The position numbers and the translations under genes are program-made. From the NCBI RefSeq assembly GCF_013403985.1, contig NZ_JABFDF010000003.1, positions 434,001 through 498,000 on the forward strand: DNA of 64,000 bases, read 5' to 3'. A model generated the notes under the pieces. The model did no database searches. It was given only the letters and a program-made list of their open reading frames with translations, and had not been told where the DNA came from. Positions 23,334 to 38,961 of this stretch are shown piece after piece; position 1 is the stretch's first letter; the number at the start of each line of letters is the position of its first letter. This DNA is from Winogradskyella ludwigii. Lineage in GTDB: Bacteria > Bacteroidota > Bacteroidia > Flavobacteriales > Flavobacteriaceae.

Positions 23334-24068
23334 CTAAATATTTAATCGGCTATAAACCATAGATTTATAACTTTCTCCAATTGGTATTCTTTCATCATTA
23401 ATAATGACTCTGTTTTTCTGAATTGAAGTGATCTTATTCACATTTACAATGTAAGATCTATGGACTCTGATAAATATATGTTCTGGTAATTTAGATTGAA
23501 TGTCTTTAAAACTCATTAAGGTTAAAATAGGTTTAGAACCTTCAGAATAAATCTTTAAATAATCTTTTAACCCTTGAATATGAATAATACTTTTGATATC
23601 AATTTTTACATTTTCATATTCAGATTTTACAAAGATAAAATCATCTACACTAGCAACTGTAGCGGCTGTATCTCCTGTTGCAGAAGACACATTAAAGGCA
23701 GTACTAACATTTAACCGCATCATTTCTTTCACACGATTTGCGGCTTTTAAAAAACGTGGAAAGGGAATAGGTTTTACTAAATAATCTACGGCATTTAAAT
23801 CGAAACCTTCTAAAGCATATTCTGGATACGCTGTTGTAAAAATAAAATAAGGCACTTTGCCTTCAAGAGATTTTATAAGTTCTATACCTGAAATATTTGG
23901 CATTTCAATATCAGAGAACACCAAATCAATACTGTTATTATTAATAAATTCTAAGGCTTCAATAGCATTGGTAAACGTACTAATAACGTCAACATTACTT
24001 AAAGCTTTACAATACGATTCTATAATATCTATTGCTAATGGCTCATCATCTATTATTATGCAATTCAT
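23334..24068 (-). CDS. LytTR-family response regulator
   Basis: 244 residues: receiver domain (1-120) with D-D-E-P near the N terminus, phospho-acceptor D53 in F-S-D-I-E-M-P, and the P-x-P switch lysine (K-P-I-P); then a LytTR DNA-binding domain (about 140-240) with the R-V-H-R-S-Y-I-V-N motif. The gene overlaps the end of the sensor kinase gene by 23 bp, so the two are co-translated. It closes a minus-strand series that starts with a beta-barrel protein at 27525, which suggests these envelope genes are either its targets or its signal source. Confidence 0.93.
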   Translation of the reverse strand: MNCIIIDDEPLAIDIIESYCKALSNVDVISTFTNAIEALEFINNNSIDLVFSDIEMPNISGIELIKSLEGKVPYFIFTTAYPEYALEGFDLNAVDYLVKPIPFPRFLKAANRVKEMMRLNVSTAFNVSSATGDTAATVASVDDFIFVKSEYENVKIDIKSIIHIQGLKDYLKIYSEGSKPILTLMSFKDIQSKLPEHIFIRVHRSYIVNVNKITSIQKNRVIINDERIPIGESYKSMVYSRLNI

Positions 24069-25101
24069 TATCCTTTAAGTTTATTGTTAAATGAACCTTG
24101 TAATTTGTTTTAGTTTCTTCGATAATTAATTCGTGATTTTTGTTATACAAATGATTAAGTTGATTCTTAATATTTTTTAAACCTACACCAGAATTTTTTT
24201 CGTCGCGTCTATATAAACCAATTATATTCTCGACTTCAAAGATTAAATTATTATCTAAAACTTTAATTTTTATATCTATATGGGTATTGCCTTCATAGTC
24301 TGTTCCGTACTTAAAAGCATTTTCAATAAAGGAAATTAATAATAATGGATAGATTTTTAAATTTCTTGTTTCACCTTTTATGTTAAGTTTAACAGCTTCA
24401 GAGTTTTTAAGGCGTAATCGCTGTAATGCGATGTAGTTTTTTAAATAATTGATCTCTTTTTCTAATAAAACTTGTTTATCTCCAGCTTCGTAAAGCATAT
24501 AGCGCATTAATTCTGATAAGGTTATTACAGCCTCTGGAGCATCATTAGATTTACTTCTTACTAAAGAATAAATACTATTTAATGAATTGAATAAAAAATG
24601 AGGGTTTAATTGATTTCTTAAGAATTGAAGCTTAATCTCTTTGTGTTCGTTTTCGAGTTCTTTTGATTCACTCTCTTTTTTATAAAAATCTACTACCAAA
24701 CTAAAAATACCACCTAAAAGATATATTGTTAAAGAAAATACAACAGGAATTGCATGTCTTATTCCCATTAATCCTCCTGGTCTGTTTGGAGGTTGAGGCA
24801 TATTATCCCTAAACCTATCTACTAGAGTGTTTACTATTAATTCTTGACTGACATAGTTAAACAGTAATAAAAAAAGGACTGAAACTATTATGTATAAAAA
24901 TAATTTTCGTTTTAATAAAAGATAAGGAACAAAAAATAAATAGTTAGTGTAGAATAAAACAGGACGTATAAGCTGCCTTAAATATAATTCTGAAGGTACC
25001 TCACCCAATTCAATATAAGCAGTTAATAATGGAAATATACTTATACATAACCATACTAAGATATGAACCGTAAGTTCTTTATACGAGATGTTTTTTATCA
25101 A
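24046..25101 (-). CDS. LytS-type sensor histidine kinase
   Basis: 351 residues. Four membrane segments lie in the first ~140 residues, with a P-P-N-R-P-G-G loop before the fourth. The His_kinase domain has the N-P-H-F-L-F-N-S-L box with phospho-acceptor H168, followed by an HATPase_c domain with the N box I-E-N-A-F-K-Y-G and G-V-G-L-K-N. There is no large periplasmic sensor domain, so it likely senses within or close to the membrane or through a partner protein. The DUF4907 gene just upstream (23 bp) is a candidate partner. Confidence 0.92.
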   Translation of the reverse strand: MIKNISYKELTVHILVWLCISIFPLLTAYIELGEVPSELYLRQLIRPVLFYTNYLFFVPYLLLKRKLFLYIIVSVLFLLLFNYVSQELIVNTLVDRFRDNMPQPPNRPGGLMGIRHAIPVVFSLTIYLLGGIFSLVVDFYKKESESKELENEHKEIKLQFLRNQLNPHFLFNSLNSIYSLVRSKSNDAPEAVITLSELMRYMLYEAGDKQVLLEKEINYLKNYIALQRLRLKNSEAVKLNIKGETRNLKIYPLLLISFIENAFKYGTDYEGNTHIDIKIKVLDNNLIFEVENIIGLYRRDEKNSGVGLKNIKNQLNHLYNKNHELIIEETKTNYKVHLTINLKDNELHNNR

Positions 25102-25124
25102 AATTTAATAATTATTGAACCGAA

Positions 25125-25478
25125 TTAAATACTATTGTAATAAATATTATTCTTGTTCAGATCATCTTTGTTAATCTTAGGAAACATTTTTTTCTCGAGT
25201 TTATTAACAACGAGTTTTCCTATTTTTTCTGCATCCAATTTGGTTTTAAAAACTTGCTTCCCTTTTACAGCAGGAATATATTCTTGACTAATAAACAAAG
25301 CACCATTATTATAGACTTCGTAAATCCAAAAACTATCTTTTTCTTTAACCTTTAGTGAATATACAGTTTCATTAACATCTTTTTTATCGATAGTGCTATT
25401 TTGAAGATTATAAAACAAAATAGTTACAATTGAAATTACTACAAAAACGGTTATATAGCTATATATTCTTTTCATCAT
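25125..25478 (-). CDS. DUF4907 family protein, membrane-anchored
   Basis: 117 residues: an N-terminal hydrophobic segment (about 5-25) acting as signal anchor, then an ~80-residue domain. The pattern Y-E-V-Y-N-N-G, I-S-Q-E-Y-I-P-A-V-K-G, F-K-T, A-E-K-I-G-K-L-V-V-N-K-L and a final M-F-P is that of DUF4907, a Bacteroidetes family of unknown function. From memory, members often sit beside Kelch-repeat proteins, as here. It is separated from the Kelch gene by a terminator-like hairpin (25490-25542) and is 23 bp before the kinase gene. Function unknown; likely extracytoplasmic. Confidence 0.75.
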   Translation of the reverse strand: MMKRIYSYITVFVVISIVTILFYNLQNSTIDKKDVNETVYSLKVKEKDSFWIYEVYNNGALFISQEYIPAVKGKQVFKTKLDAEKIGKLVVNKLEKKMFPKINKDDLNKNNIYYNSI

Positions 25479-25489
25479 ATTTATAATTT

Positions 25490-25542
25490 AAAAAAAGAGC
25501 CAGGACTTATCAGGTATAGGGATACAAAATTTATCCTGGCTC
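25490..25542 (-). terminator. Intra-cluster terminator/attenuator between Kelch and DUF4907 genes
   Basis: Read on the minus strand, GAGCCAGGA pairs perfectly with TCCTGGCTC across a 28-nt loop (which itself contains a GTAT/ATAC mini-stem), followed at once by seven T. It is a convincing rho-independent terminator placed in the middle of a co-directional gene series, so expression of the kinase/regulator downstream may depend on read-through or a separate promoter. Confidence 0.8.
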
Positions 25543-25613
25543 GGGTATTGACTATTTAATTGACATCTACAAACAACAATAGTCAACGGAATCAATCTAA
25601 ACAATTCTTTATA

Positions 25614-26621
25614 TTAGTTATCGTCGTCGTCTTGTTCTTGTGTTGGGAAAAATTCCATGTTATCATCTAAATACAATGTTCCGTTTCTTCCTAAGGCTAC
25701 AAAAGCACGTTCACCATTATTAAATGAGACAGCATCTCTTCGTGCATAAAGTTCAAATTCTGTTTTTTCTTTCCATACTTCTGTTGCTGGGTTATATTCA
25801 TAAACAGTATCTGTACTTCCTCCATAATCTCCACAAGCCACATAACCTTTACCGTTTATTGTAAATGCTACAGCATTAGATCTAAATACGTAATCATCAT
25901 CATCTTCATCAATATCCTCAAGCTGTGACCAAACTTCTGTATCTAAGTTAAATACCCAGAAATCTGTTTCGTAAACACCATTACTAATACCTGTCCCTAA
26001 ATACACGTTATTATCAATTGTAAATGTTACACCATCTTTTCTTTTATCTCCTCCAAAGCCATAAACTTCAGTCCAAGAATCTGAAGTTGGATCGTATTTC
26101 CAGAAATCTTTTTTATCACTTCCATCAAAACCAGTACCTACATAACCAGCAGTAGTAGATCCAAAACCTACAGCACCGTATCTTGCAGAACCACCAAAAT
26201 CGGCAATTTGCGTCCAACTATTGGTTGAAGCGTTGTATTTATAAAAATCTGCTAATTCTTCGTTAGTATCTCCATTATAACCCGTTCCAATATAACCATC
26301 GTTATTAATTACAAAAGATACTCCTGCACTACGAACTTCACCTGGGAAATCTGATAATTGTTGCCAAGAATTAGTATCCATATTGTAACTCCAAAAATCA
26401 TCATAATAATCATCACCATCATAACCTGTTCCCATATAGCCAATGTTACCAATGGTAAAGGCTGTAGAACTACTTCTAGCTTCTTCATTAAATGTAGATT
26501 TCTTTACCCAGTTTCCTACGGTATCATCACTATCGTCATCGCTACTGCAGCTGTATGACATTGTTAGTATGGCTCCTAAAAAAAGAAACCTTAAGATTGA
26601 TTTGTTATTCATTTTTTTCAT
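25614..26621 (-). CDS. Kelch-repeat lipoprotein
   Basis: 335 residues. A lipobox M-S-Y-S-C ends the signal peptide, followed by an acidic D/S linker. About six Kelch repeats (around 50 residues each) fill the rest: each has a G-Y-x-G-T-G strand, a D-F-W-x-Y-N turn and a final S-W-x-x-x. This predicts a six-bladed beta-propeller anchored in the outer membrane; the last residues are strongly acidic. Bacteroidetes Kelch proteins of this type are often called galactose-oxidase-like, but no catalytic copper site is visible, so a binding or scaffold role is more likely. The gene starts 1 bp after the barrel-protein stop, implying coupling. Confidence 0.87.
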   Translation of the reverse strand: MKKMNNKSILRFLFLGAILTMSYSCSSDDDSDDTVGNWVKKSTFNEEARSSSTAFTIGNIGYMGTGYDGDDYYDDFWSYNMDTNSWQQLSDFPGEVRSAGVSFVINNDGYIGTGYNGDTNEELADFYKYNASTNSWTQIADFGGSARYGAVGFGSTTAGYVGTGFDGSDKKDFWKYDPTSDSWTEVYGFGGDKRKDGVTFTIDNNVYLGTGISNGVYETDFWVFNLDTEVWSQLEDIDEDDDDYVFRSNAVAFTINGKGYVACGDYGGSTDTVYEYNPATEVWKEKTEFELYARRDAVSFNNGERAFVALGRNGTLYLDDNMEFFPTQEQDDDDN

Positions 26622-26622
26622 T

Positions 26623-27525
26623 TTACTTATTATTTATGTTTAAACTAATTCCTATGTTTAATGACAATGAATCATCAGAATCAAAATCATATATGGCATT
26701 ATCATTTTTTGTAATAGAGAGTTCACTTGCTGTTAAATAACCAACATTAAAATATGTAGACCAATTAGAATCAAATTGAAAATTATATCCAAGCGCCACA
26801 TTTAGAGCCGTAAATTCATATTTTGAATTATAGAAAACAGCATCATTTTCCATACTAAATCCTGATGCATTATTTACGTAAATAGATTCCGGTTTCCCTG
26901 TTAAACTGATAATACTCTGTTCGTTTACAGCATAATATGCTCCTGTAATAGGAAAACCTATTTCATACCTAAACTTTTCATTTACATTATTAGAATAAGA
27001 GATCAGTGGATAAAAGTTTGGTTTACCAAATAACGAACCATATCCAGCACCTATATTTAAATAAGATTCTAGTCCATTATCTTTATGCCAAGTTTTAATG
27101 AAATTTGCAGCATAACTAAAAACAAAATCTTCACTTGTAATTTTCTCGTTAAATGTTGAAGACAAATAGGGAGAAAGCGTAATGTCTAAGTCCCAATTAT
27201 TAGCTAGTGCTTTTTTATACTTGGCGTAGATTTCTAAACTGTGTAACTCTTCAAATGAATTAAAATGATTGTACATATCATAATCTTCAAAATCACTACT
27301 TGTATTTGTGTAATGCACACCAAAACCAAAGGTTGGTTTTTTTAATAACGATGTAAAATCAACGGTTATAGATTTTTTTTCAAATTGAACATCATTTAAA
27401 CTGGTGTAAATGTTGTAGTCTAGGGCAACCAAATCTTCTGCACCAGTTGTTATAAACATATTTTGTCCATACATGGTTATAGAAACTAAACTAAAGGCTA
27501 TATAATAAATTGTTTTTGTACTCAT
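26623..27525 (-). CDS. Outer-membrane beta-barrel protein (DUF6268-like)
   Basis: 300 residues from the ATG at 27525, which opens a clean signal peptide ending M-Y-G-Q; an ATG at 27546 would add seven residues ahead of it. The mature protein alternates short amphipathic strands and turns and ends in I-N-I-N-N-K with aromatic-rich strands before it. The arrangement (K-A-L-A-N-N-W-D-L-D, G-K-P-N-F-Y-P-L-I-S-Y) resembles the barrel protein at 59694-60581, and both look like the DUF6268 family. It is the first gene of the minus-strand Kelch/DUF4907/LytSR series. Pore or transport function is unproven. Confidence 0.7.
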   Translation of the reverse strand: MSTKTIYYIAFSLVSITMYGQNMFITTGAEDLVALDYNIYTSLNDVQFEKKSITVDFTSLLKKPTFGFGVHYTNTSSDFEDYDMYNHFNSFEELHSLEIYAKYKKALANNWDLDITLSPYLSSTFNEKITSEDFVFSYAANFIKTWHKDNGLESYLNIGAGYGSLFGKPNFYPLISYSNNVNEKFRYEIGFPITGAYYAVNEQSIISLTGKPESIYVNNASGFSMENDAVFYNSKYEFTALNVALGYNFQFDSNWSTYFNVGYLTASELSITKNDNAIYDFDSDDSLSLNIGISLNINNK

Positions 27526-27739
27526 CGAGTGCGAACATACTAACACAAACTTTTACTCTAATTATAAAATAGACCTATACAGTTTTCATGTAGACAAACT
27601 CCTCATTTTAATCTATGAATCCAATTGTTAACTTTAATAGTATAAAAACTGCTTTTTGTAGATAAATATTAGCCGTAGGTATATTTCACTTTTTATTAGA
27701 TTAAAACGGTAGTTGATTTGTAGAAATTCTATAAAACAA

Positions 27740-29038
27740 ATGTTTAAATCCTATCTAAAATTATTTTCGGTAATTGTTATTTTAATTGTTGCTATTTCTT
27801 GTTCTGCAGATGCTGAAGAAGATGGGCTTTCAGCCGGAGAAGACTTTACAAATACAGATATTAGAGTGTTATCTATAGATACCTTTTCCGTTAAGTTTTC
27901 TACCATGAAATTCGATTCAATTATAACCTCTGATAGTAATAGGTTATTAATTGGAAAGTATAATGATGATGATATGGGAATTGTAAATTCTTCAGCATAT
28001 CTTCAACTTAGTAGCTCTACGTATTCTATAGATAATGAAGCTATTTTAGATAGTGTTGGTTTAATTTTAGGTTATGATACTTATTATTATAATGATACTA
28101 CTCAAGTATCAACACTTAATGTTCATAGGCTAATAGATAAAATGGAAAGTGATGATTCTTATTTTTACAATACCACAATAACGGCTTACGAAACGACACC
28201 TTTAGTGAGTAAAACATTTATTCCTACTCCAAGTAACGATTCTCTATCCATTACCTTACCATATACGTTTGGAGAAGAATTATTTAATGATATTAGAGAT
28301 AATAACATTACAGATGATGAGTCTTTTTACCAGAAACTAAAAGGTTTAACTATCCAACCAGGAGATAGTGATAATGGGGCAATTATTGGTTATTCCACAA
28401 CAAGTGATAACACGTATTTAAGATTTTATTACACCATACCAGATGAGCTAGAAACTGATGAGTACACTTATGATATTTCTATAAATAGTTATTATAATAA
28501 AACAGAAACAGATGTTACAGGTTTACCTTTAGCACTAATTACAGACCAAGAATACAATTTACTCTCTACTGAAAGCAATGGTATTAGTTACAACCAAGGA
28601 AGTACAGGATATGTTACCAAAATTGAGTTTCCATCCATAAAGAATATCTATGATATTAGCACTGAAGGCACCATACTAGAAGCCACGCTATATATAGAGC
28701 CAAATACAGCTTCGCATTCTGATATACAACCTTTAAGCGAAGAGCTACTGTTATACACCATTGACCAAAACAACGATTTGGCCAGTCAGGTTTCCAATAG
28801 TATAGATGTGGTTACAGGAACACTTTCTAGCGAAGATTCTGAGTTTAATAATATCGTATACAGTATTCCTGTAATAGATTTTATTGATCAAAAATTAACT
28901 GAAAGTCCAGAAACGGAAGATGCACTTATTTTAATTTCAAGCGATTTCAATTCTACAATAAATAAAATAATATTTAATGATAGTGAACGCTCAGATTACA
29001 AAACCAAACTAATAATTACTTATGCTATATATGAATAA
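27740..29038 (+). CDS. DUF4270 family lipoprotein
   Basis: 432 residues from the ATG at 27740, where the signal peptide begins M-F-K-S-Y; it ends in the lipobox V-A-I-S-C. An ATG nine codons earlier is less likely. The segment F-S-V-K-F-S-T ... D-S-I-I-T-S ... G-K-Y-N-D-D near residues 45-75 is the N-terminal pattern of DUF4270, Bacteroidetes lipoproteins of unknown function. The rest is rich in S, T, D and Y with beta character. It overlaps the following barrel gene by 8 bp and is divergent from the Kelch cluster. It is probably surface-exposed or periplasmic on the outer membrane. Confidence 0.82.
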   Translation: MFKSYLKLFSVIVILIVAISCSADAEEDGLSAGEDFTNTDIRVLSIDTFSVKFSTMKFDSIITSDSNRLLIGKYNDDDMGIVNSSAYLQLSSSTYSIDNEAILDSVGLILGYDTYYYNDTTQVSTLNVHRLIDKMESDDSYFYNTTITAYETTPLVSKTFIPTPSNDSLSITLPYTFGEELFNDIRDNNITDDESFYQKLKGLTIQPGDSDNGAIIGYSTTSDNTYLRFYYTIPDELETDEYTYDISINSYYNKTETDVTGLPLALITDQEYNLLSTESNGISYNQGSTGYVTKIEFPSIKNIYDISTEGTILEATLYIEPNTASHSDIQPLSEELLLYTIDQNNDLASQVSNSIDVVTGTLSSEDSEFNNIVYSIPVIDFIDQKLTESPETEDALILISSDFNSTINKIIFNDSERSDYKTKLIITYAIYE

Positions 29039-30266
29039 ATCTAAAAACTTAATTATTTGCGCAATGGCATTTGGGTTATTTGGCTTCTCTCAGTCTAATA
29101 ATCTAACAGGATCACCTTATTCACTTTTTGGGTTAGGTGTAGAAAGTAATTCTGGTACTGGTAGAAATAGTGGAATTGGTAATACGGGGATTTCCCTTGA
29201 TTCAGATTACGGTCTTAACCTCTACAATTCAGCTGCATTTGCATCATTAAGTCCAGATGAATTTATTTTGGACTTTGGTGGAGTATCAGAATTTGTTAAC
29301 TTATCTGGAAATGATATTAGCGAGCAAAAATCAACCTATAATTTCTCTAATATTTCCATCGGTTTTAATAGTGATGGAAAATATGGTATGGGATTAACTC
29401 TAAAACCATCTACAAGTGTAGGTTATTCTTTGGTAGGTTTACAAAGTAATATTGAAGGGGATAATGAGCAATTTACAACTAACATCGAAGGTTCTGGTGG
29501 ATTAAACGAAGCCCGTTTGGATTATGGTCGAAAAATAAATGATAATTTAAATATTGGTATTAAAGCCTCTTATTTATTTGGAAAAATAGAAGAAACGGAA
29601 TCTATTGTAACCACAAGCAGTTACTTAGAAGTTTCTGAAACTAACTATTATAGAGGTGCTCAGTTGGGTTTAGGATTACAATATAACCTTTTAGATAAAC
29701 ATGATTTTGGGTTCACAGTAGATTTCCCAACGGTATTAAATGGAACTAAAGATATTATTATTGGTAAATATTCTAATTCTGCTTATACCTTATTAGAAGA
29801 AACCGTAGATGAAACTATTGACGACTTTTATATTCCTTTAAAATTAGGATTTGGATATAGCACAAGATTTAAAAACTTGCTTTTATCTGCAGATTATAAT
29901 AAAAGTTTTTGGTCTACTACTGACCAATCTGATGCTATTGGAGATTACGTAGATCAAGATATTTATAGTATAGGTGCAGCTTACACTATAGATCGTACAA
30001 GTAAAAAGTTCTGGAAACGTGTAGATTTTAGAATGGGCCTAAACTATAATTCTGGTTATCTAGAAGTAGATGATACCAAAATTGATACTTATACGGCATC
30101 TTTAGGTATGGGTATCCCAATTGGAAGAAGATCTTTATTAAATATTTCATATTCATTAGGTAAAAAAGGAACTACTGAAAGTATCCTTATTCAAGAATAT
30201 GTAAACACACTTAGCATAAATCTATCTTTATCAGATTTATGGTTTCAAAAACGAAAGTTTAACTAA
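29031..30266 (+). CDS. Outer-membrane beta-barrel protein paired with the DUF4270 lipoprotein
   Basis: 411 residues from the ATG at 29031, which gives a typical signal peptide (M-N-K-S-K-N ... F-G-F-S-Q). The mature part starts S-P-Y-S-L-F-G-L-G, a motif common to a group of Bacteroidetes barrel proteins with a FadL-like N terminus (glycine-rich, Y-N-S-A-A-F-A-S-L-S). Regular strands follow to the end. Overlap of 8 bp with the DUF4270 gene means coupled translation, so the two products probably form a lipoprotein-barrel pair. Substrate unknown. Confidence 0.72.
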   Translation: MNKSKNLIICAMAFGLFGFSQSNNLTGSPYSLFGLGVESNSGTGRNSGIGNTGISLDSDYGLNLYNSAAFASLSPDEFILDFGGVSEFVNLSGNDISEQKSTYNFSNISIGFNSDGKYGMGLTLKPSTSVGYSLVGLQSNIEGDNEQFTTNIEGSGGLNEARLDYGRKINDNLNIGIKASYLFGKIEETESIVTTSSYLEVSETNYYRGAQLGLGLQYNLLDKHDFGFTVDFPTVLNGTKDIIIGKYSNSAYTLLEETVDETIDDFYIPLKLGFGYSTRFKNLLLSADYNKSFWSTTDQSDAIGDYVDQDIYSIGAAYTIDRTSKKFWKRVDFRMGLNYNSGYLEVDDTKIDTYTASLGMGIPIGRRSLLNISYSLGKKGTTESILIQEYVNTLSINLSLSDLWFQKRKFN

Positions 30267-30364
30267 AATCGAAGTCTTACCATCTTATAGTAAGTCACAA
30301 TTCCTGAAAAATCCCATCGATAAAAAAATAGCTTTTGTATAGACAAACGCATCAAACGTCTATT

Positions 30365-30424: not shown

Positions 30425-31753
30425 ATGAAACGATTTTTTTTCATCTTATCCATACTTATCTCACAGATAATATTAGCGCAAGAAGCTCGTTCTGAGTCAT
30501 CAGAGGTTTGGACGTTAAGTGACTGTATTGAATACGCTATAGAAAACAACATTTCTATAAAAGATGCAGCTTTAGATACAGAACAAGCAAATGTAAATTA
30601 TAGTCAATCTAAATCGTCTAGATTACCAGATCTTTATGGTTCAGCTTCGCAGTCCTTTTCAAACGGAAACTCAATTGATCCTATAACTAGTGATTACGTA
30701 ACAGATCAAATTTATAGTACTAACGCTAGTCTTAATAGTACTATGACTTTGTTTAAAGGAAATCAAATCAACAATCAAATAGCTCAAGACGAGTTATTCC
30801 GAAACCAAAGTGTATTTTTAGAAGAAGCTGCTAAAAACAATATTATTGTTAGCATCTTAGAGAACTACTTACAAATTTTATATGCTAAAGAAGGCATTAC
30901 AATCGCTGAAAACAATCTCAATGTTTCAGAGAAAGAAGTAGAACGTGCTAAAGCGAGATTAGATGCTGGAACAATTGCCCTTAGCGATTATACAGAAGCA
31001 CAAAGCCAAGCTGCGACAAATAAATATACCATTATTACAGCAAAGAATACCTACCAACAAAACATTATAACCTTAAAACAATTATTAGAATTAAATCCAA
31101 CTCAAGATATTGAAATTGAAACTTTAGGAAATGATGTTGATTCTATAAATCTCGAGCTAGATAAAATGGCTATTTATAATAAAGCATTAGGCATTCTACC
31201 AGAAGTTAATGCAAGTAACATTGGAGTAGAAGCAAGCAAAAAAGATTTAGATATTGCTAAAGGTGCTTATTTACCAACCCTATCATTAGCTAGTAGTATT
31301 GGTTCTGGATATACAAGTGTAACTGATACTAATTTTTCAGATCAGTTTAATGTCAACTTTAATCAACGTATTTCATTGTCATTAAATATTCCAATTTTTA
31401 ATAAAAACCAGACTAAAGCGGCTGTACAAACAGCACAAATTAATATTGAAAAGGCACAGATTAGTCAACAAACAACTGTAAAAGAAGTTTATAAAAAAGT
31501 TGAAACAGCTTATCAAAATGCTTTATCTACACAAGAACAATTAGTTGCAGCAGAAGCTTCAAAAACAGCAGCAGAACAATCGTACAATTTAGCACAAAAG
31601 AAATACGAATTAGGAGCACTAAGCACAACAGATTTAGTGATTAGCCAAAATACGTATACAAACGCTCAGCAAAATTATTTACAAGCAAAATACTTAAGTG
31701 TTTTATACCACCAATTATTACAATTTTATCAAGGAAACGAAATCAAACTTTAA
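30425..31753 (+). CDS. TolC-family outer-membrane efflux protein
   Basis: 442 residues: signal peptide ending I-L-A-Q, then two repeated helical OEP domains (about 30-220 and 250-440) with the long alanine- and glutamine-rich coiled-coil helices of TolC channels. W-T-L-S-D-C-I-E-Y-A near residue 30 is the usual start of Bacteroidetes members. It is the outer-membrane duct for the MacA/MacB proteins encoded immediately after (12 bp gap), so this operon encodes a complete tripartite system. Confidence 0.93.
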   Translation: MKRFFFILSILISQIILAQEARSESSEVWTLSDCIEYAIENNISIKDAALDTEQANVNYSQSKSSRLPDLYGSASQSFSNGNSIDPITSDYVTDQIYSTNASLNSTMTLFKGNQINNQIAQDELFRNQSVFLEEAAKNNIIVSILENYLQILYAKEGITIAENNLNVSEKEVERAKARLDAGTIALSDYTEAQSQAATNKYTIITAKNTYQQNIITLKQLLELNPTQDIEIETLGNDVDSINLELDKMAIYNKALGILPEVNASNIGVEASKKDLDIAKGAYLPTLSLASSIGSGYTSVTDTNFSDQFNVNFNQRISLSLNIPIFNKNQTKAAVQTAQINIEKAQISQQTTVKEVYKKVETAYQNALSTQEQLVAAEASKTAAEQSYNLAQKKYELGALSTTDLVISQNTYTNAQQNYLQAKYLSVLYHQLLQFYQGNEIKL

Positions 31754-31764
31754 TCAACAGAATC

Positions 31765-32976
31765 ATGAAAAATAAAACGAAAATTATTATAAGTATAGTT
31801 ATAGTCGCAGCACTTGCTATTGCTGGCTTCAGTCTTTTAAAAAGCGATGATACCATCATTATAGAGCCTAGAACTGTTACAGCAAAACAAGCAAATGTAA
31901 CTACAATGGTTACAGCAACCGGAACCATTGAGCCTATAAACCAAGTAGATGTTGGTACACAAGTTTCTGGTGTGGTAGAAAAAGTTCTTGTCGACTATAA
32001 TAGCGTTGTTAAAGAAGGACAACTTATAGCAGAGTTAGATAAAACAAACCTAAAAGCATCACTTACACAAGCGCAAGCGTCTTATGATAATGCTGTAAGT
32101 CAAAAGAATTATACACAAACTATTTACGAAAGACAAAAAACATTGTTTAACAATCAAGTGATTAGCAAATCAGATTTCGATGATGCAGCTTACAGTTTCC
32201 AAACAGCAAAAGGAACGGTTACACAACGTTTATCAGATTTACAATCTGCGAGAACCAATCTTGGTTATGCAAATATATATTCGCCAATAGATGGTGTTGT
32301 ATTATCTAGAGATATAGATGAAGGGCAAACTGTAGCAGCAAGTTATAGTACACCAACTTTATTTACAATTGCTCAAGATTTAAAACAAATGCAAGTGGAA
32401 GCAGATGTTGATGAAGCAGATATAGGACAAGTAAAAGATGGACAACGTGTAGAATTTACAGTAGATGCTTACATCGGTGAAACCTTTGAAGGTGAAGTAA
32501 CACAAGTCAGATTAGATCCAACAGTAACCTCTAATGTAGTTACATACACTGTGGTAATTAAAGCAGATAATGAAGATTTAAAACTAAAACCAGGTTTAAC
32601 AGCAACCATTTCAATTTTTACTTTAGAATTAAATGATGTGTTAACAGCAGAAGCTAAAGCTATCAATTTTACACCAGAACCTGAAACATTAGCGACTTAT
32701 AATGCGCATCATAATTTAGCTGAAACCACAAACATGCCTTCTAAAAATGAGTCGATACTTTGGATATTAGGCAATAACGGTTCTATAGTTCCAAAAACAG
32801 TAACGCTTGGAGCAAGTGATGGTGTTAATGTTCAAGTTTTAAGCGGAATCGTAGAGGGAGATAAATTAGTTTATAGTTTAAAAGGTGTATCTAAATCGGA
32901 AGCATCTGGTACACCAGCAGGAGCAAACGAAAGTCCATTTATGCCACAACGTCCAGGAGGTAACAAGAAAAAATAA
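31765..32976 (+). CDS. MacA-like periplasmic adaptor (HlyD/RND membrane-fusion family)
   Basis: 403 residues: one N-terminal membrane anchor (about 5-25), a split biotinyl-lipoyl domain (G-T-I-E-P-I-N-Q-V-D-V-G-T-Q-V-S-G and the matching Y-S-P-I-D-G-V-V-L half), an alpha-helical hairpin (about 90-160), a beta-barrel domain and a membrane-proximal domain. It couples the inner-membrane MacB-type transporter with the TolC-like channel. The last ~25 residues are a G/P/K-rich tail of unknown role. The ATPase gene follows after 6 bp. Confidence 0.92.
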   Translation: MKNKTKIIISIVIVAALAIAGFSLLKSDDTIIIEPRTVTAKQANVTTMVTATGTIEPINQVDVGTQVSGVVEKVLVDYNSVVKEGQLIAELDKTNLKASLTQAQASYDNAVSQKNYTQTIYERQKTLFNNQVISKSDFDDAAYSFQTAKGTVTQRLSDLQSARTNLGYANIYSPIDGVVLSRDIDEGQTVAASYSTPTLFTIAQDLKQMQVEADVDEADIGQVKDGQRVEFTVDAYIGETFEGEVTQVRLDPTVTSNVVTYTVVIKADNEDLKLKPGLTATISIFTLELNDVLTAEAKAINFTPEPETLATYNAHHNLAETTNMPSKNESILWILGNNGSIVPKTVTLGASDGVNVQVLSGIVEGDKLVYSLKGVSKSEASGTPAGANESPFMPQRPGGNKKK

Positions 32977-32982
32977 AAAACC

Positions 32983-33726
32983 ATGAGTAAAGAAATCATA
33001 AAAATAGAAGATTTAAAACGTGAGTTTACCATGGGAACCGAAACGGTTCATGCGTTACGAGGAATTTCATTCTCAATAAAAGAAGGCGAGTTTGTTACCA
33101 TCATGGGATCTAGTGGATCTGGTAAAAGTACCATGCTTAATATTTTAGGTTGTTTAGACCAACCAACTTCAGGAGTATATGAAATCGATGGCGTTAGTGT
33201 AAAAGATTTAAGTCGTAATCAGCTAGCAACCATAAGAAACGAAAAAATTGGATTCATTTTTCAATCTTATAATTTACTAGCAAGAACATCTGCGCTAGAA
33301 AATGTAGAATTACCACTATTATATAATAGTAAAGTTTCAACAGAAGAACGCAGAGAAAGAGCCATAAAAGCATTAAAAATGGTGGGTTTAGAAGAAAGAA
33401 TGGGACACACACCTTCACAACTTTCAGGCGGACAACAACAAAGAGTTGCTATTGCAAGATCATTAGTTAATAACCCTGTAATGATACTCGCAGATGAAGC
33501 CACTGGAAACTTAGATACGCGAACATCTTACGAAATCATGTCGTTGTTTCAAGAGTTAAACAAAAAGGGAATTACCATTACGTTTGTAACTCACGAGCCA
33601 GATATAGCAACGTTTAGTAACAGAACTATTGTATTAAAAGACGGAGAGATTATGCAAGATTATAAAAATCATAATGTACAATCTGCAACCGATGAATTAG
33701 CCAAATTACCTAAACAAGACGATTAA
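32983..33726 (+). CDS. MacB-type ABC transporter ATP-binding subunit
   Basis: 247 residues with Walker A G-S-S-G-S-G-K-S-T, signature L-S-G-G-Q-Q-Q-R and Walker B L-A-D-E-A-T-G-N-L-D, as in LolD/MacB ATPases. In proteobacterial MacB the ATPase and permease are one polypeptide; here they are separate genes 2 bp apart, as is usual in Bacteroidetes. It powers periplasm-to-outside export of substrates such as peptides, siderophores or antibiotics through the TolC-like protein. Confidence 0.94.
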   Translation: MSKEIIKIEDLKREFTMGTETVHALRGISFSIKEGEFVTIMGSSGSGKSTMLNILGCLDQPTSGVYEIDGVSVKDLSRNQLATIRNEKIGFIFQSYNLLARTSALENVELPLLYNSKVSTEERRERAIKALKMVGLEERMGHTPSQLSGGQQQRVAIARSLVNNPVMILADEATGNLDTRTSYEIMSLFQELNKKGITITFVTHEPDIATFSNRTIVLKDGEIMQDYKNHNVQSATDELAKLPKQDD

Positions 33727-33728
33727 TT

Positions 33729-34949
33729 ATGAGACTATTAAATTTATTTAAAATCGCAACAAAAGCTATCATTCTTAATAAGACAAGAACTCTGTTAACC
33801 ATGTTAGGAATCATTATTGGTGTAGCCTCGGTAATTGCCATGCTAGCTATTGGAGAAGGTTCTAAAGAAAGTATTCGTGAAAGTATTTCTAGTATGGGTT
33901 CTAATATGATTACCATTAGACCAGGTGCAGATACAAGAGGTCCAGCAAGAGGTAGTGGAGGAGATGTACAGACTTTAACGCTTCAAAACTATGAAGTGAT
34001 AAAAGAAAAAGCCACGACGTTAAGTTATATAACACCAGTGGTAAATGGTGGTGGACAAGTAATTAGTGGTTCTAATAACTGGCCAAGTACTATTTATGGT
34101 GTCAACCCAGATTACTTAAAAATTAAAGTAGTCGATCTACAAAGCGGAAGTATGTTTACAGATGCTGAAGTAAAATCGGCTTCTAAAGTGGCTCTTATTG
34201 GTCAAACCGTTGTAGACAATGTGTTTCCTGATGGTCAAGAACCTGTAGGACAAATGATTCGTTTTAATAATATCCCATTTAAAGTGATTGGTGTTTTAGA
34301 AGAAAAAGGAGAAAATACCTTTGGACAAGATCAAGATGATGTGGTTATTGCACCTTACACAACGGTTCAAAAACGAATTCTAGCCATCGATTATTTAAAC
34401 CAAGTAATGGCTTCTGCTATTAGTGAAGATGATGCGCCAGAAGCTGTAACTCAAGTAACAGAAATTCTACGTACAGAACACAAATTGATGGATAGTGAAG
34501 AGGACGATTTTAGTGTACGTTCTATGGAAGAATTGATTTCTACGTTTAGTTCAACTAGCGAGATGTTAACCATTCTATTAGTGGCAGTTGCAAGTATATC
34601 TTTATTGATTGGTGGTATAGGAATTATGAACATAATGTATGTATCTGTAAAAGAAAGAACTAAAGAAATCGGACTGCGTATGGCCGTTGGTGCTAAAGGT
34701 GCAGATATTTTAATGCAGTTCTTAATTGAAGCCATTTTAATCAGTATTACAGGAGGTGTTTTAGGTGTAATTCTAGGCCTTGGAGCAACGGTCTTTATTG
34801 AGCAATTTTTGAATTGGCCTACAAGCGTTGCGTTGTATTCTATAATAATTTCTTTTGCTGTTTGTGCTGTGACGGGTATCTTTTTTGGATGGTATCCTGC
34901 TCGTAAAGCTTCAGCTTTAGATCCTATAACTGCCTTACGTTACGAGTAA
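33729..34949 (+). CDS. MacB-type ABC transporter permease
   Basis: 406 residues with the MacB topology: first helix (about 20-42), large periplasmic MacB-PCD domain (45-270), then three helices near 285-310, 335-360 and 370-390. The N terminus has the K-T-R-T-L-L-T-M-L-G-I-I-I-G segment and the cytoplasmic end the P-A-R-K-A-S-A-L-D-P-I motif, both highly typical. It undergoes mechanotransmission, not classic alternating access. It completes the efflux operon; substrate unknown. Confidence 0.93.
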   Translation: MRLLNLFKIATKAIILNKTRTLLTMLGIIIGVASVIAMLAIGEGSKESIRESISSMGSNMITIRPGADTRGPARGSGGDVQTLTLQNYEVIKEKATTLSYITPVVNGGGQVISGSNNWPSTIYGVNPDYLKIKVVDLQSGSMFTDAEVKSASKVALIGQTVVDNVFPDGQEPVGQMIRFNNIPFKVIGVLEEKGENTFGQDQDDVVIAPYTTVQKRILAIDYLNQVMASAISEDDAPEAVTQVTEILRTEHKLMDSEEDDFSVRSMEELISTFSSTSEMLTILLVAVASISLLIGGIGIMNIMYVSVKERTKEIGLRMAVGAKGADILMQFLIEAILISITGGVLGVILGLGATVFIEQFLNWPTSVALYSIIISFAVCAVTGIFFGWYPARKASALDPITALRYE

Positions 34950-36499: not shown

Positions 36500-37534
36500 A
36501 TGTATAAAAACAATAAAATCACGGTATTTTCACACTTACTAGTATGGCTAGTATTGTTCAGTATGCCTTACGTATTATCTTATGGCCAATCGCAAGAAAT
36601 AAATAGGATTATAGCACATTTCTGGATTCCTTTAGTGCTTTATGCTGTCATTTTCTACACCAATTACTTTGTACTAATAGATCGGTTTTTATTTACTAAA
36701 AAAATGTGGCAATTTGTAGGTGTCAATTTCGTAATGATTGCTATGTTTATTACCTTAAAAGAACAAATAGAAAATAATTTCTTTGCAAGCTTATTAAAGA
36801 AACCTGCCAACGATGATGGTAATGGCCCTCCTTTTAAGATGTTTCTATATATCCAAATGCTGTCGTATATGGCGCCTTTATTATTTTCTATAGCTATAAA
36901 AACGACCAAACGTTGGATACAAACAGAAAGCGAACGCAAGGAAGCGGCTCATATTAAATTGAAGTCCGAGTTGCAGCATTTACATTACCAGTTACAACCA
37001 CATTTCTTTTTTAATTCATTAAATAATATATATGCTATGGTTGATATTTCACCAGACAGAGCAAAAACATCCATTCATAGTCTAAGCAAATTAATGCGTT
37101 ATATGTTGTATGAAACGAATGTAGAATCTATTCTTTTATCTAAAGAGATCGATTTTATGAAAAAATACATCGACCTCATGAAACTTCGTGTTTCAGATAA
37201 AACAGTAGTTAACTATAGTTTTCCTGTAAAAGAAACAGGTATCAAAATCGCACCTTTACTTTTCATTTCATTAATTGAAAACGCATTTAAACATGGAGTT
37301 TCTGCAAGTAAAGAAAGTTTGATTTCTATTGATATGTCATATTCTAATAATAAAGTGATCTTTGTTATAGAAAACAATAATTTCCCAAAACAGACGGATG
37401 ATAAAAGTGGCTCCGGTATTGGTTTACAGAATTTAATAAAACGTCTAGAATTATTATATCTTAATAAATATGAGTTTAAAACAACCTTAAAAGACGAGTG
37501 TTTTTCTGTACTTTTAGAAATTGAAACTACTTAA
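36500..37534 (+). CDS. LytS-type sensor histidine kinase
   Basis: 344 residues: four membrane segments in the first ~135 residues, a His_kinase domain with Q-P-H-F-F-F-N-S-L and phospho-acceptor H168, and an HATPase_c domain with I-E-N-A-F-K-H-G and G-S-G-I-G-L. It is a paralogue of the kinase at 24046-25101, with the phospho-acceptor at the same residue number, so the two arose from a common ancestor. The response regulator starts 8 bp downstream. The stimulus is unknown; the preceding Lcl lipoprotein and MacAB-TolC suggest envelope or exported-compound sensing. Confidence 0.92.
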   Translation: MYKNNKITVFSHLLVWLVLFSMPYVLSYGQSQEINRIIAHFWIPLVLYAVIFYTNYFVLIDRFLFTKKMWQFVGVNFVMIAMFITLKEQIENNFFASLLKKPANDDGNGPPFKMFLYIQMLSYMAPLLFSIAIKTTKRWIQTESERKEAAHIKLKSELQHLHYQLQPHFFFNSLNNIYAMVDISPDRAKTSIHSLSKLMRYMLYETNVESILLSKEIDFMKKYIDLMKLRVSDKTVVNYSFPVKETGIKIAPLLFISLIENAFKHGVSASKESLISIDMSYSNNKVIFVIENNNFPKQTDDKSGSGIGLQNLIKRLELLYLNKYEFKTTLKDECFSVLLEIETT

Positions 37535-37542
37535 AGGATATT

Positions 37543-38274
37543 ATGAGTAATATTAAGATTACATGTGTTATTGTAGATGATGAGCCCATGGCTCTTAATT
37601 TAGTTGAAAGCTACGTTGAAAAAACACCTTTTTTAGATTTTAAAAAGAAGTGTAGTAGTGCTATTGAGGCTATGGAATATATTAAATCCAATCCTGTAGA
37701 CTTACTGTTTTTAGATATTCAAATGCCAGACTTAACTGGGATCGAATTTTCTAAAATGCTACCCAAAGAAACACGTGTTATTTTCACAACCGCTTTTGAT
37801 CATTATGCTTTAGAGGGTTTTAAAGTTGAAGCCATAGACTATTTGTTGAAGCCTTTTGATTATGCTGAGTTTTTAGCCGCCGCCAATAAAGCCAATACGT
37901 GGTTTGAATTGGTAAGAGGGCAACGAAAAAGCATCTTGTCTGAAGAAAAAGAGTTTTTGTTTGTGAAATCTGAATACAAGCAATTACGTATTAAGCTAGC
38001 CGATGTGTTATATTTTGAAGGCCTAAAAGATTATATTAAAATATGGATAAAAGGCAACACAAAACCCATACTAACGTTAATGAGTTTAAAGTCTCTTGAA
38101 GAAGAATTACCTTCTACACAGTTTATGCGTGTGCACAGATCTTTTATTGTCTCGTTAAATAATATAGATGTTATAGAGCGCAGTCAGATTATTATTAATG
38201 AACAACGCATCACGGTTTCAGAGCATTACAAACCTACATTCTTAGAGTTTATCAATAATAATTCATTAAAATAA
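37543..38274 (+). CDS. LytTR-family response regulator
   Basis: 243 residues: receiver domain with V-D-D-E-P, phospho-acceptor D58 in F-L-D-I-Q-M-P and switch K-P-F-D; LytTR DNA-binding domain from about 140 with R-V-H-R-S-F-I-V. Similar to the regulator at 23334-24068 throughout. Probably cognate to the kinase 8 bp upstream. Likely targets are this locus itself and the upstream MacAB operon, whose promoter has a loose pair of LytTR-like sites. Confidence 0.93.
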   Translation: MSNIKITCVIVDDEPMALNLVESYVEKTPFLDFKKKCSSAIEAMEYIKSNPVDLLFLDIQMPDLTGIEFSKMLPKETRVIFTTAFDHYALEGFKVEAIDYLLKPFDYAEFLAAANKANTWFELVRGQRKSILSEEKEFLFVKSEYKQLRIKLADVLYFEGLKDYIKIWIKGNTKPILTLMSLKSLEEELPSTQFMRVHRSFIVSLNNIDVIERSQIIINEQRITVSEHYKPTFLEFINNNSLK

Positions 38275-38407
38275 TTTAGATAATCTTAATTCGTCTAGAA
38301 ATCCACCTTTTTAAGAGGTGAATACACCTTGTTTGTCTATTTCGTTTTATCAGCCTTATAAACATGGTTACATTTGCGCTATCATAATATATAATAAAAT
38401 CATACTC

Positions 38408-38757: not shown

Positions 38758-38961
38758 ATTTTATTCAAATTTCAACTGTTTTCCTTTTGGTTTTAAAAAG
38801 CCAATCTATTAAATACCTAGATTCATAGATAAAATTTAAGCACTCGTCTATTTCTTTTTTTTAACCCTCAAATGACAATTACCTTTATAGTATAATTAAG
38901 ATTATACAACGTCTAAAAGATTATAGAAGAGGAGAATTTTAATCATTTAAAACTTAAAATT

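Follow-up and report, generated by a model that had tools for sequence, protein, structure and literature searches.

A conserved accessory locus in Winogradskyella ludwigii and relatives joins paralogues of the BAM subunits BamG and BamH to a Kelch lipoprotein, a DUF4907 protein and LytSR

BamG and BamH were defined in 2025 as components of a canopy that sits on the extracellular side of BamA in the barrel assembly machinery (BAM) (PMC12611786, PMC12578637). According to these two accounts, BamG is essential in Flavobacterium johnsoniae and resisted deletion in Bacteroides thetaiotaomicron, and BamH is essential in the former species and important, albeit non-essential, in the latter. An extended N-terminal tail of BamG threads through the lateral opening towards BamA, and the dome of the B. 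thetaiotaomicron complex contains BamI, a six-bladed propeller lipoprotein that contacts BamH. Both accounts mention the paralogues BamG2 and BamH2 and assign no function to them. For B. thetaiotaomicron, an iron table gives 3.6 and 0.437 in the row of BT1785-86, figures from which we derive no conclusion. We analysed a stretch of 64,000 nucleotides from Winogradskyella ludwigii (NZ_JABFDF010000003.1, 434,001-498,000; termed the window, on which all coordinates are based), which contains, like B. thetaiotaomicron (Bt1785/Bt1786, a putative operon) and F. johnsoniae, a paralogous BamG-BamH pair. Here, the genes bamH2 and bamG2, the Kelch lipoprotein gene, the DUF4907 gene and the LytSR genes constitute one conserved accessory locus, which is new. 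Neither the Kelch protein nor DUF4907, LytSR or the operator is described in the portions considered of the published BamG2/BamH2 accounts; in the open-access literature searched, DUF4907 occurred in no paper, DUF4270 (the BamH2 family) in a single one, and no title or abstract described a BamG2/BamH2-Kelch-DUF4907-LytSR locus. The locus consists of the following features:

23334-24068, minus strand: LytTR response regulator, LytR (Pfam Response_reg 71 bits, LytTR 59 bits)
24046-25101, minus strand: LytS-type histidine kinase (Pfam His_kinase 89 bits), overlapping the regulator gene by 23 bp
25125-25478, minus strand: DUF4907 protein (Pfam DUF4907 74 bits), 23-bp gap to the kinase gene
25614-26621, minus strand: predicted Kelch-propeller surface lipoprotein (Pfam Kelch repeats), 135-bp gap to the DUF4907 gene
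26623-27546, minus strand: outer-membrane barrel, an optional member, 1-bp gap to the Kelch gene; GTG start, ATG at 27525 possible
27590-27621, minus strand: LytTR-type direct repeat facing the barrel-Kelch-DUF4907-LytSR unit (22.1 bits)
27632-27684, plus strand: LytTR-type direct repeats facing bamH2-bamG2, with the main pair at 27653-27684 and a weaker pair 21 bp upstream
27713-29038, plus strand: BamH2, DUF4270 surface lipoprotein (Pfam DUF4270 83 bits), TTG start as annotated
29022-30266, plus strand: BamG2, BamG-family barrel (NCBIfam BamG 373 bits; PDB BamG chains)

All seven open reading frames are present, five on the minus and two on the plus strand in a divergent arrangement. A preliminary description of this DNA had proposed two coupled divergent units with spacings of 1, 8 and 23 bp, and these distances were recovered, the 8-bp value applying to the second ATG of bamG2; the complete bamG2 reading frame overlaps bamH2 by 17 bp. 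For BamH2, the ATG at 27740 is the likely start and yields a normal lipoprotein signal. Due to the 135-bp gap the coupling between the DUF4907 and Kelch genes is loose.

The preliminary description had also placed four of the genes in families of no known function or ligand, which no longer applies to two of them, now recognized as BamH and BamG paralogues. The plus-strand barrel (29022-30266) is assigned to BamG by the NCBIfam model NF053685 with 373 bits (cut-off 250), and its matches in the PDB include the BamG chains of cryo-electron microscopy structures of Bacteroidota BAM (9hjm_F, 4e-33; 9hiv_F, 8.6e-29; 9n2d_B, 1.9e-27); a Pfam search with the same barrel gave no family at E 0.1. The DUF4270 lipoprotein exceeds the Pfam cut-off of 27 bits for DUF4270, which is the BamH family, by scoring 83 bits. 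Because a sequence profile of the window's DUF4270 group produced zero matches in the PDB, the comparison was extended to the fold. The predicted structure of BamH2 (pLDDT 89.7) has as its top three PDB matches the BamH chains 9hjm_G, 9n2d_C and 9his_G from the complexes of Porphyromonas gingivalis, F. johnsoniae and B. thetaiotaomicron, with E values from 9.6e-19 to 8.3e-18 and a TM score of about 0.65, compared to only 6.3e-4 for the next-ranked match. From these profiles and the predicted structure we identify the DUF4270 lipoprotein as BamH2 and the plus-strand barrel as BamG2, both paralogous to BAM subunits. The motif SPYSxxGxG in the N-terminal tail is common to BamG and BamG2, and 7 of the 26 columns of this tail carry the same residue in both groups at a level of at least 80%, against 28 of the 357 columns elsewhere; the C-terminal WFxKxK is kept by BamG2 within the window's family. 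BamG2 thus shares the NCBIfam and PDB assignment and the N-tail motif with canonical BamG but forms a separate branch of the family, and BamH2 is a paralogue within the canonical BamH family according to Pfam DUF4270 and the predicted structure. As paralogues of BamH and BamG, the two proteins are more likely to act in outer-membrane protein assembly than in ligand binding; the idea that the locus mainly encodes a ligand receptor or transporter was demoted after the barrel had matched BamG. Our confidence in these identities and in the locus as such is much higher than that in the full explanation developed below.

The canonical subunits are encoded elsewhere in the window's genome. A second DUF4270 gene matches the PDB BamH chain 9n2d_C at 1.3e-66, a second BamG gene reaches 442 bits, and the canonical bamH and bamG adjoin a glycogen-synthase-like gene and coaX-like plus TPR genes, respectively, which we take by eye from their sequences to be such. 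In contrast to the canonical bamG and bamH, which lie apart at these two sites, bamG2 and bamH2 are arranged side by side with the Kelch, DUF4907 and LytSR genes. In a BamG tree the locus-linked copies (41 rows) and the canonical copies (30 rows, taken exclusively from the window's family) are separated by one branch with a support of 100/100. When distant canonical copies were included the split was no longer single, with two changes and one split in 12% of the bootstrap trees; in this extended tree, family f4 nevertheless had its canonical copies in a group apart from its locus copies. At the canonical bamH site of genome G180, a short divergent DUF4270 gene (L176:1778-3208, 476 amino acids) lies by the glycogen-synthase-like gene.

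Within the window's family, 26 of 199 genomes contain DUF4907; for its phylum the figure is 29 of 395, which amounts to 51 distinct genomes in all. We read 46 of the neighbourhoods, 33 within the window's family and 13 outside; the five unread loci belong to one genus and have, by coordinates, a DUF4270 match within 4 kb. The Kelch gene is adjacent to the DUF4907 gene in all 46 loci, of which 43 contain BamH2 and 41 BamG2. Within the window's family all 33 loci have both LytSR genes, compared with 5/13 outside it, where one further locus has the regulator only. Kelch and DUF4907 occur together in eight of the families sampled and are joined by BamH2 in six. A chance neighbourhood was rejected because the same arrangement recurs in other genera and families. 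A second DUF4270 gene was recognized by Pfam in 20 of the 26 family genomes with DUF4907 versus 3 of the 173 without (Fisher 2.5e-19, uncorrected for relatedness), and the six DUF4907 genomes lacking such a Pfam match have BamH2 at the locus according to a locus-trained profile. In five BamH2 loci devoid of DUF4907 (G049, G119, G173, G533 and G549) the Kelch gene is again next door (5/5). The named set of loci, defined as the best 80 of 565 by Kelch similarity and therefore skewed to close relatives and overlapping with the 46 loci, contains Kelch, DUF4907 and BamH2 in 80/80, BamG2 in 78/80 and LytSR in 78/80 cases, and all three incomplete loci sit on cut-off stretches. The accessory character of the locus is illustrated by the only other sampled genome of the window's genus, which has neither DUF4907 nor a second BamG. 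The earlier expectations that these families co-occur in other genomes in linkage with LytSR, and that they represent one coherent, surface-exposed envelope system, are supported by this recurrence as a unit.

A BamG search was performed in 47 chosen genomes, each with at least one match, and in five of them (G014, G205, G426, G441 and G576) the locus copy is the only full-length one. A search of these five genomes with a profile of canonical BamG agreed: apart from the locus copy it yielded just two matches, both short and weak, and it recovered the canonical gene of the control genome G121 with 588 bits. DUF4270 has a single match in each of the five, at the locus. A bamH gene beside the glycogen-synthase-like gene is absent in 5/5 of these genomes and present in the control G121 and the comparators G286, G318, G480 and G340. 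The coaX-like gene could be located in all but G205, and bamG is missing beside it in these four genomes. Between the coaX-like and TPR genes of G426 a 40-codon remnant of the bamG start (L162:1495-1617) is preserved as a fossil of gene loss; the coaX site of G014 carries at most a weak C-terminal bamG trace (E 0.001-0.003), and those of G441 and G576 carry none. Masked stretches (N) were not seen in the loci examined of the five genomes; the assemblies of G441 and G576 are drafts, and those of G014 and G205 consist of one and two contigs, respectively. The Kelch protein, DUF4907 and BamG2H2 are retained by all five. As the five genomes fall in three families and as, in f4, G441 and G576 cluster apart from each other, each with genomes that possess both copies, the canonical pair was lost at least three times, perhaps five. 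Where BamG has been tested it is essential, and in the simplest interpretation BamG2H2 could therefore do the job of BamGH.

In 25 of the 26 family loci, acidic residues follow the lipidation cysteine of the Kelch protein, similar to lipoprotein export signals; the last locus has an uncertain start. The protein is predicted to be a surface lipoprotein of the propeller type. Kelch proteins or designs based on Kelch make up the best 60 of its 109 PDB matches. An assignment as sialic-acid mutarotase was provisionally set aside as the NCBIfam mutarotase models all remained below their cut-off; the Pfam model NANM, matched in parts with 49.6 bits (cut-off 45), was likewise set aside in view of the general match to Kelch repeats and the predicted surface lipoprotein. 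The protein, a propeller-type lipoprotein encoded beside BamH2, resembles in this respect BamI, the six-bladed propeller lipoprotein located beside BamH in the B. thetaiotaomicron dome; a sequence relation to BamI was not seen among the best 60 of the 109 PDB matches, a direct comparison not having been made. In one locus (L059:5741-9658) a tandem of three Kelch genes precedes DUF4907, with BamG2H2 not nearby. The small minus-strand barrel adjoining the Kelch gene (26623-27546) gave only barrel matches below the Pfam cut-off, among them a weak one to OMP_b-brl, and is an optional member present in 17/46 loci and in 37/80 of the named set.

The constancy of the Kelch gene, the most constant neighbour both in the 46 DUF4907 loci and in the five BamH2 loci without DUF4907, would fit a BAM variant with BamG2H2 that builds only the Kelch lipoprotein and its barrel partner, both being clients and not subunits. 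This idea also agrees with the published finding that loss of bamH hits mainly barrel-lipoprotein complexes. We nevertheless consider it unlikely: the barrel is missing from 29/46 loci, Kelch-DUF4907 persists in 3/46 loci without BamG2H2, and in the five genomes without a detected canonical copy the pair must serve general clients.

DUF4907 is composed of an N-terminal membrane helix, replaced by a lipobox in several loci, and a small alpha/beta domain. Its predicted structure (pLDDT 92) gave no Foldseek match at E 0.001 and a best VIA-align Z of 5.5, a value typical of common arrangements; no fold was assigned with confidence. The adjacent His_kinase protein and the regulator with its LytTR domain form, according to Pfam, a LytSR pair, and the kinase indeed has no large sensor domain, as had been noted before, because its hydrophobic stretches are confined to residues 8-141 upstream of the H-box. 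The operon linkage to such a kinase and the membrane-tethered DUF4907 protein, whose gene is flanked by those of the Kelch protein and the kinase in most loci of the family, might suggest a surface sensor in which an external ligand is bound by the Kelch protein, the barrels and the BamH2-like protein and the signal passes via DUF4907 to LytSR, the likeness to BAM reflecting mere ancestry. This proposal appears improbable to us, as 8/13 loci outside the family keep Kelch-DUF4907 without a complete adjacent LytSR, five genomes rely on BamG2H2 with the canonical pair undetected, and no ligand-binding signature was found. Additional kinase/LytTR regulator pairs occur near the locus in L030, L047, L139 and L140, the latter having two extra pairs. 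A LytTR regulator/kinase pair of F. johnsoniae (FJOH_RS09515/RS09520) is mutated in every one of five lines that had evolved together with an antibiotic producer (PMC10197871, Table 2).

Candidate binding sites of the regulator were obtained by a Gibbs motif search in the intergenic DNA between the divergent units of 31 family loci, after exclusion of two near-copies. The motif has a length of 32 bp and 21.6 bits, compared with 12.2 and 12.4 for two shuffled sets, and consists of 9-bp half-sites TTnGTAkAT in direct repeat with a 21-bp period. Counted with a fixed pattern, the 31 loci contain 148 half-sites, whereas 200 dinucleotide shuffles give 36 on average and never more than 57. Half-site pairs at 21 bp number 30, compared with an average of 0.085 and at most 2 in the shuffles, and the next commonest distances are 42 (12), 68 (11) and 47 (10). 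A weight matrix, trained on the same 31 loci that it scored, located a site in 31/31 loci and sites in both directions in 28/31, the averages of 50 shuffles being 1.32 and 0.06; leave-one-locus-out scores were also computed. Among all positions of the 64-kb window, 27653-27684 (plus strand) is the best with 30.4 bits, or 28.7 bits if its own locus is left out of the training, and 27590-27621 (minus strand) the second-best with 22.1 bits; a weaker site of 8.3 bits lies at 27632-27663 (plus strand). The named set shows sites in both directions in 66 and at least one site in 78 of 79 regions. Nine-bp repeats with a 12-bp spacing correspond to the layout described for LytTR operators (PMC6193735). 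Direct repeats, spacing and the resulting 21-bp period are shared with those operators, whereas the half-site TTnGTAkAT, the frequent presence of more than two repeats and the two arrays facing divergent units distinguish the arrangement found here. Both units are thus preceded by pairs of 9-bp direct repeats with a distance of about 21 bp, which suggests that the regulator would control the module; which LytR binds these candidate repeats we infer from gene linkage. Strong sites also occur outside the family in G426 and G480, although LytSR is not adjacent there, and G205 has neither sites nor LytSR.

The window contains a second pair at 36500-38274, which we take from its sequence to be a LytS-like kinase and a LytTR-like regulator, with operator-like sites at 38309-38340 (15.8 bits) and 38820-38851 (21.9 bits); LytR paralogues may therefore share sites. 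A further operator-like site (30332-30363, 14.8 bits) lies upstream of a tolC-macA-ABC-macB-like efflux operon (30425-34949). Efflux genes occur near the locus in other genomes as well (TolC in 27/131, MacA in 29/131 and MacB in 25/131 loci); being clumped among relatives, they were left out as part of the system.

Taking the data together, we regard it as rather probable that the locus is an accessory alternative extracellular BAM module, under its own LytSR control in the window's family. In the scenario we propose, a signal, perhaps envelope or BAM stress, would lead the kinase to activate LytR, which would then turn on its own operon and bamH2-bamG2. BamG2 would dock on BamA in the place of BamG and carry BamH2 as a canopy, so that BamG2H2 would stand in for BamGH. 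The Kelch propeller might be an added canopy subunit, comparable to the BamI propeller, or a dedicated client; the chances that it is a canopy subunit are about even. DUF4907 would be a membrane-tethered, probably periplasmic helper or a partner of the kinase.

Several observations weigh against this interpretation. A complete adjacent LytSR is lacking in G205, G426 and G576, and the replacement of the canonical pair in these genomes is therefore uninformative with regard to LytSR control. Besides the three loci with Kelch-DUF4907 and no BamG2H2 pair mentioned above, two of the 46 have BamH2 and no BamG2. The strict pattern finds a 21-bp half-site pair in only 17/31 loci and on both strands in 4/31, and the same motif is situated near the other LytSR pair of the window (38820-38851). 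Some distant BamG2 rows have not retained the C-terminal tail of BamG, among them those of G426 and G441, two of the genomes in which no canonical pair was detected. Moreover, in the published accounts (PMC12611786, PMC12578637) BamG2 and BamH2 were undetected in B. thetaiotaomicron proteomics, not appreciably expressed by F. johnsoniae in rich medium and both deletable in the species studied; a B. thetaiotaomicron bamH bamH2 double deletion was no worse than that of bamH alone, and the only suppressor described for F. johnsoniae bamH maps to BamA. The absent or low expression and the dispensability in the two species studied would also be expected of a duplicated bamGH pair that is a silent relic without function today. 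The conservation of gene order and operator across genera and the five genomes in which it is the sole detected pair make such a relic very improbable.

BamG2H2 had so far been without a function, an inducing condition or a regulator, and the locus adds a regulator, a candidate operator and a constant partner, the Kelch protein. Natural genomes with a seemingly sole BamG2H2 pair make the question of an alternative BAM directly testable. We know of no regulated exchange of the client-facing part of an outer-membrane assembly machine, which would be new. At even chances, in our estimation, many Bacteroidota may carry a second, signal-inducible BAM, in which a LytSR signal would swap the BamGH canopy for BamG2H2 and a Kelch propeller, with DUF4907 inside, and thereby retool the machine for other clients or for stress; several lineages would now rely on this variant alone.

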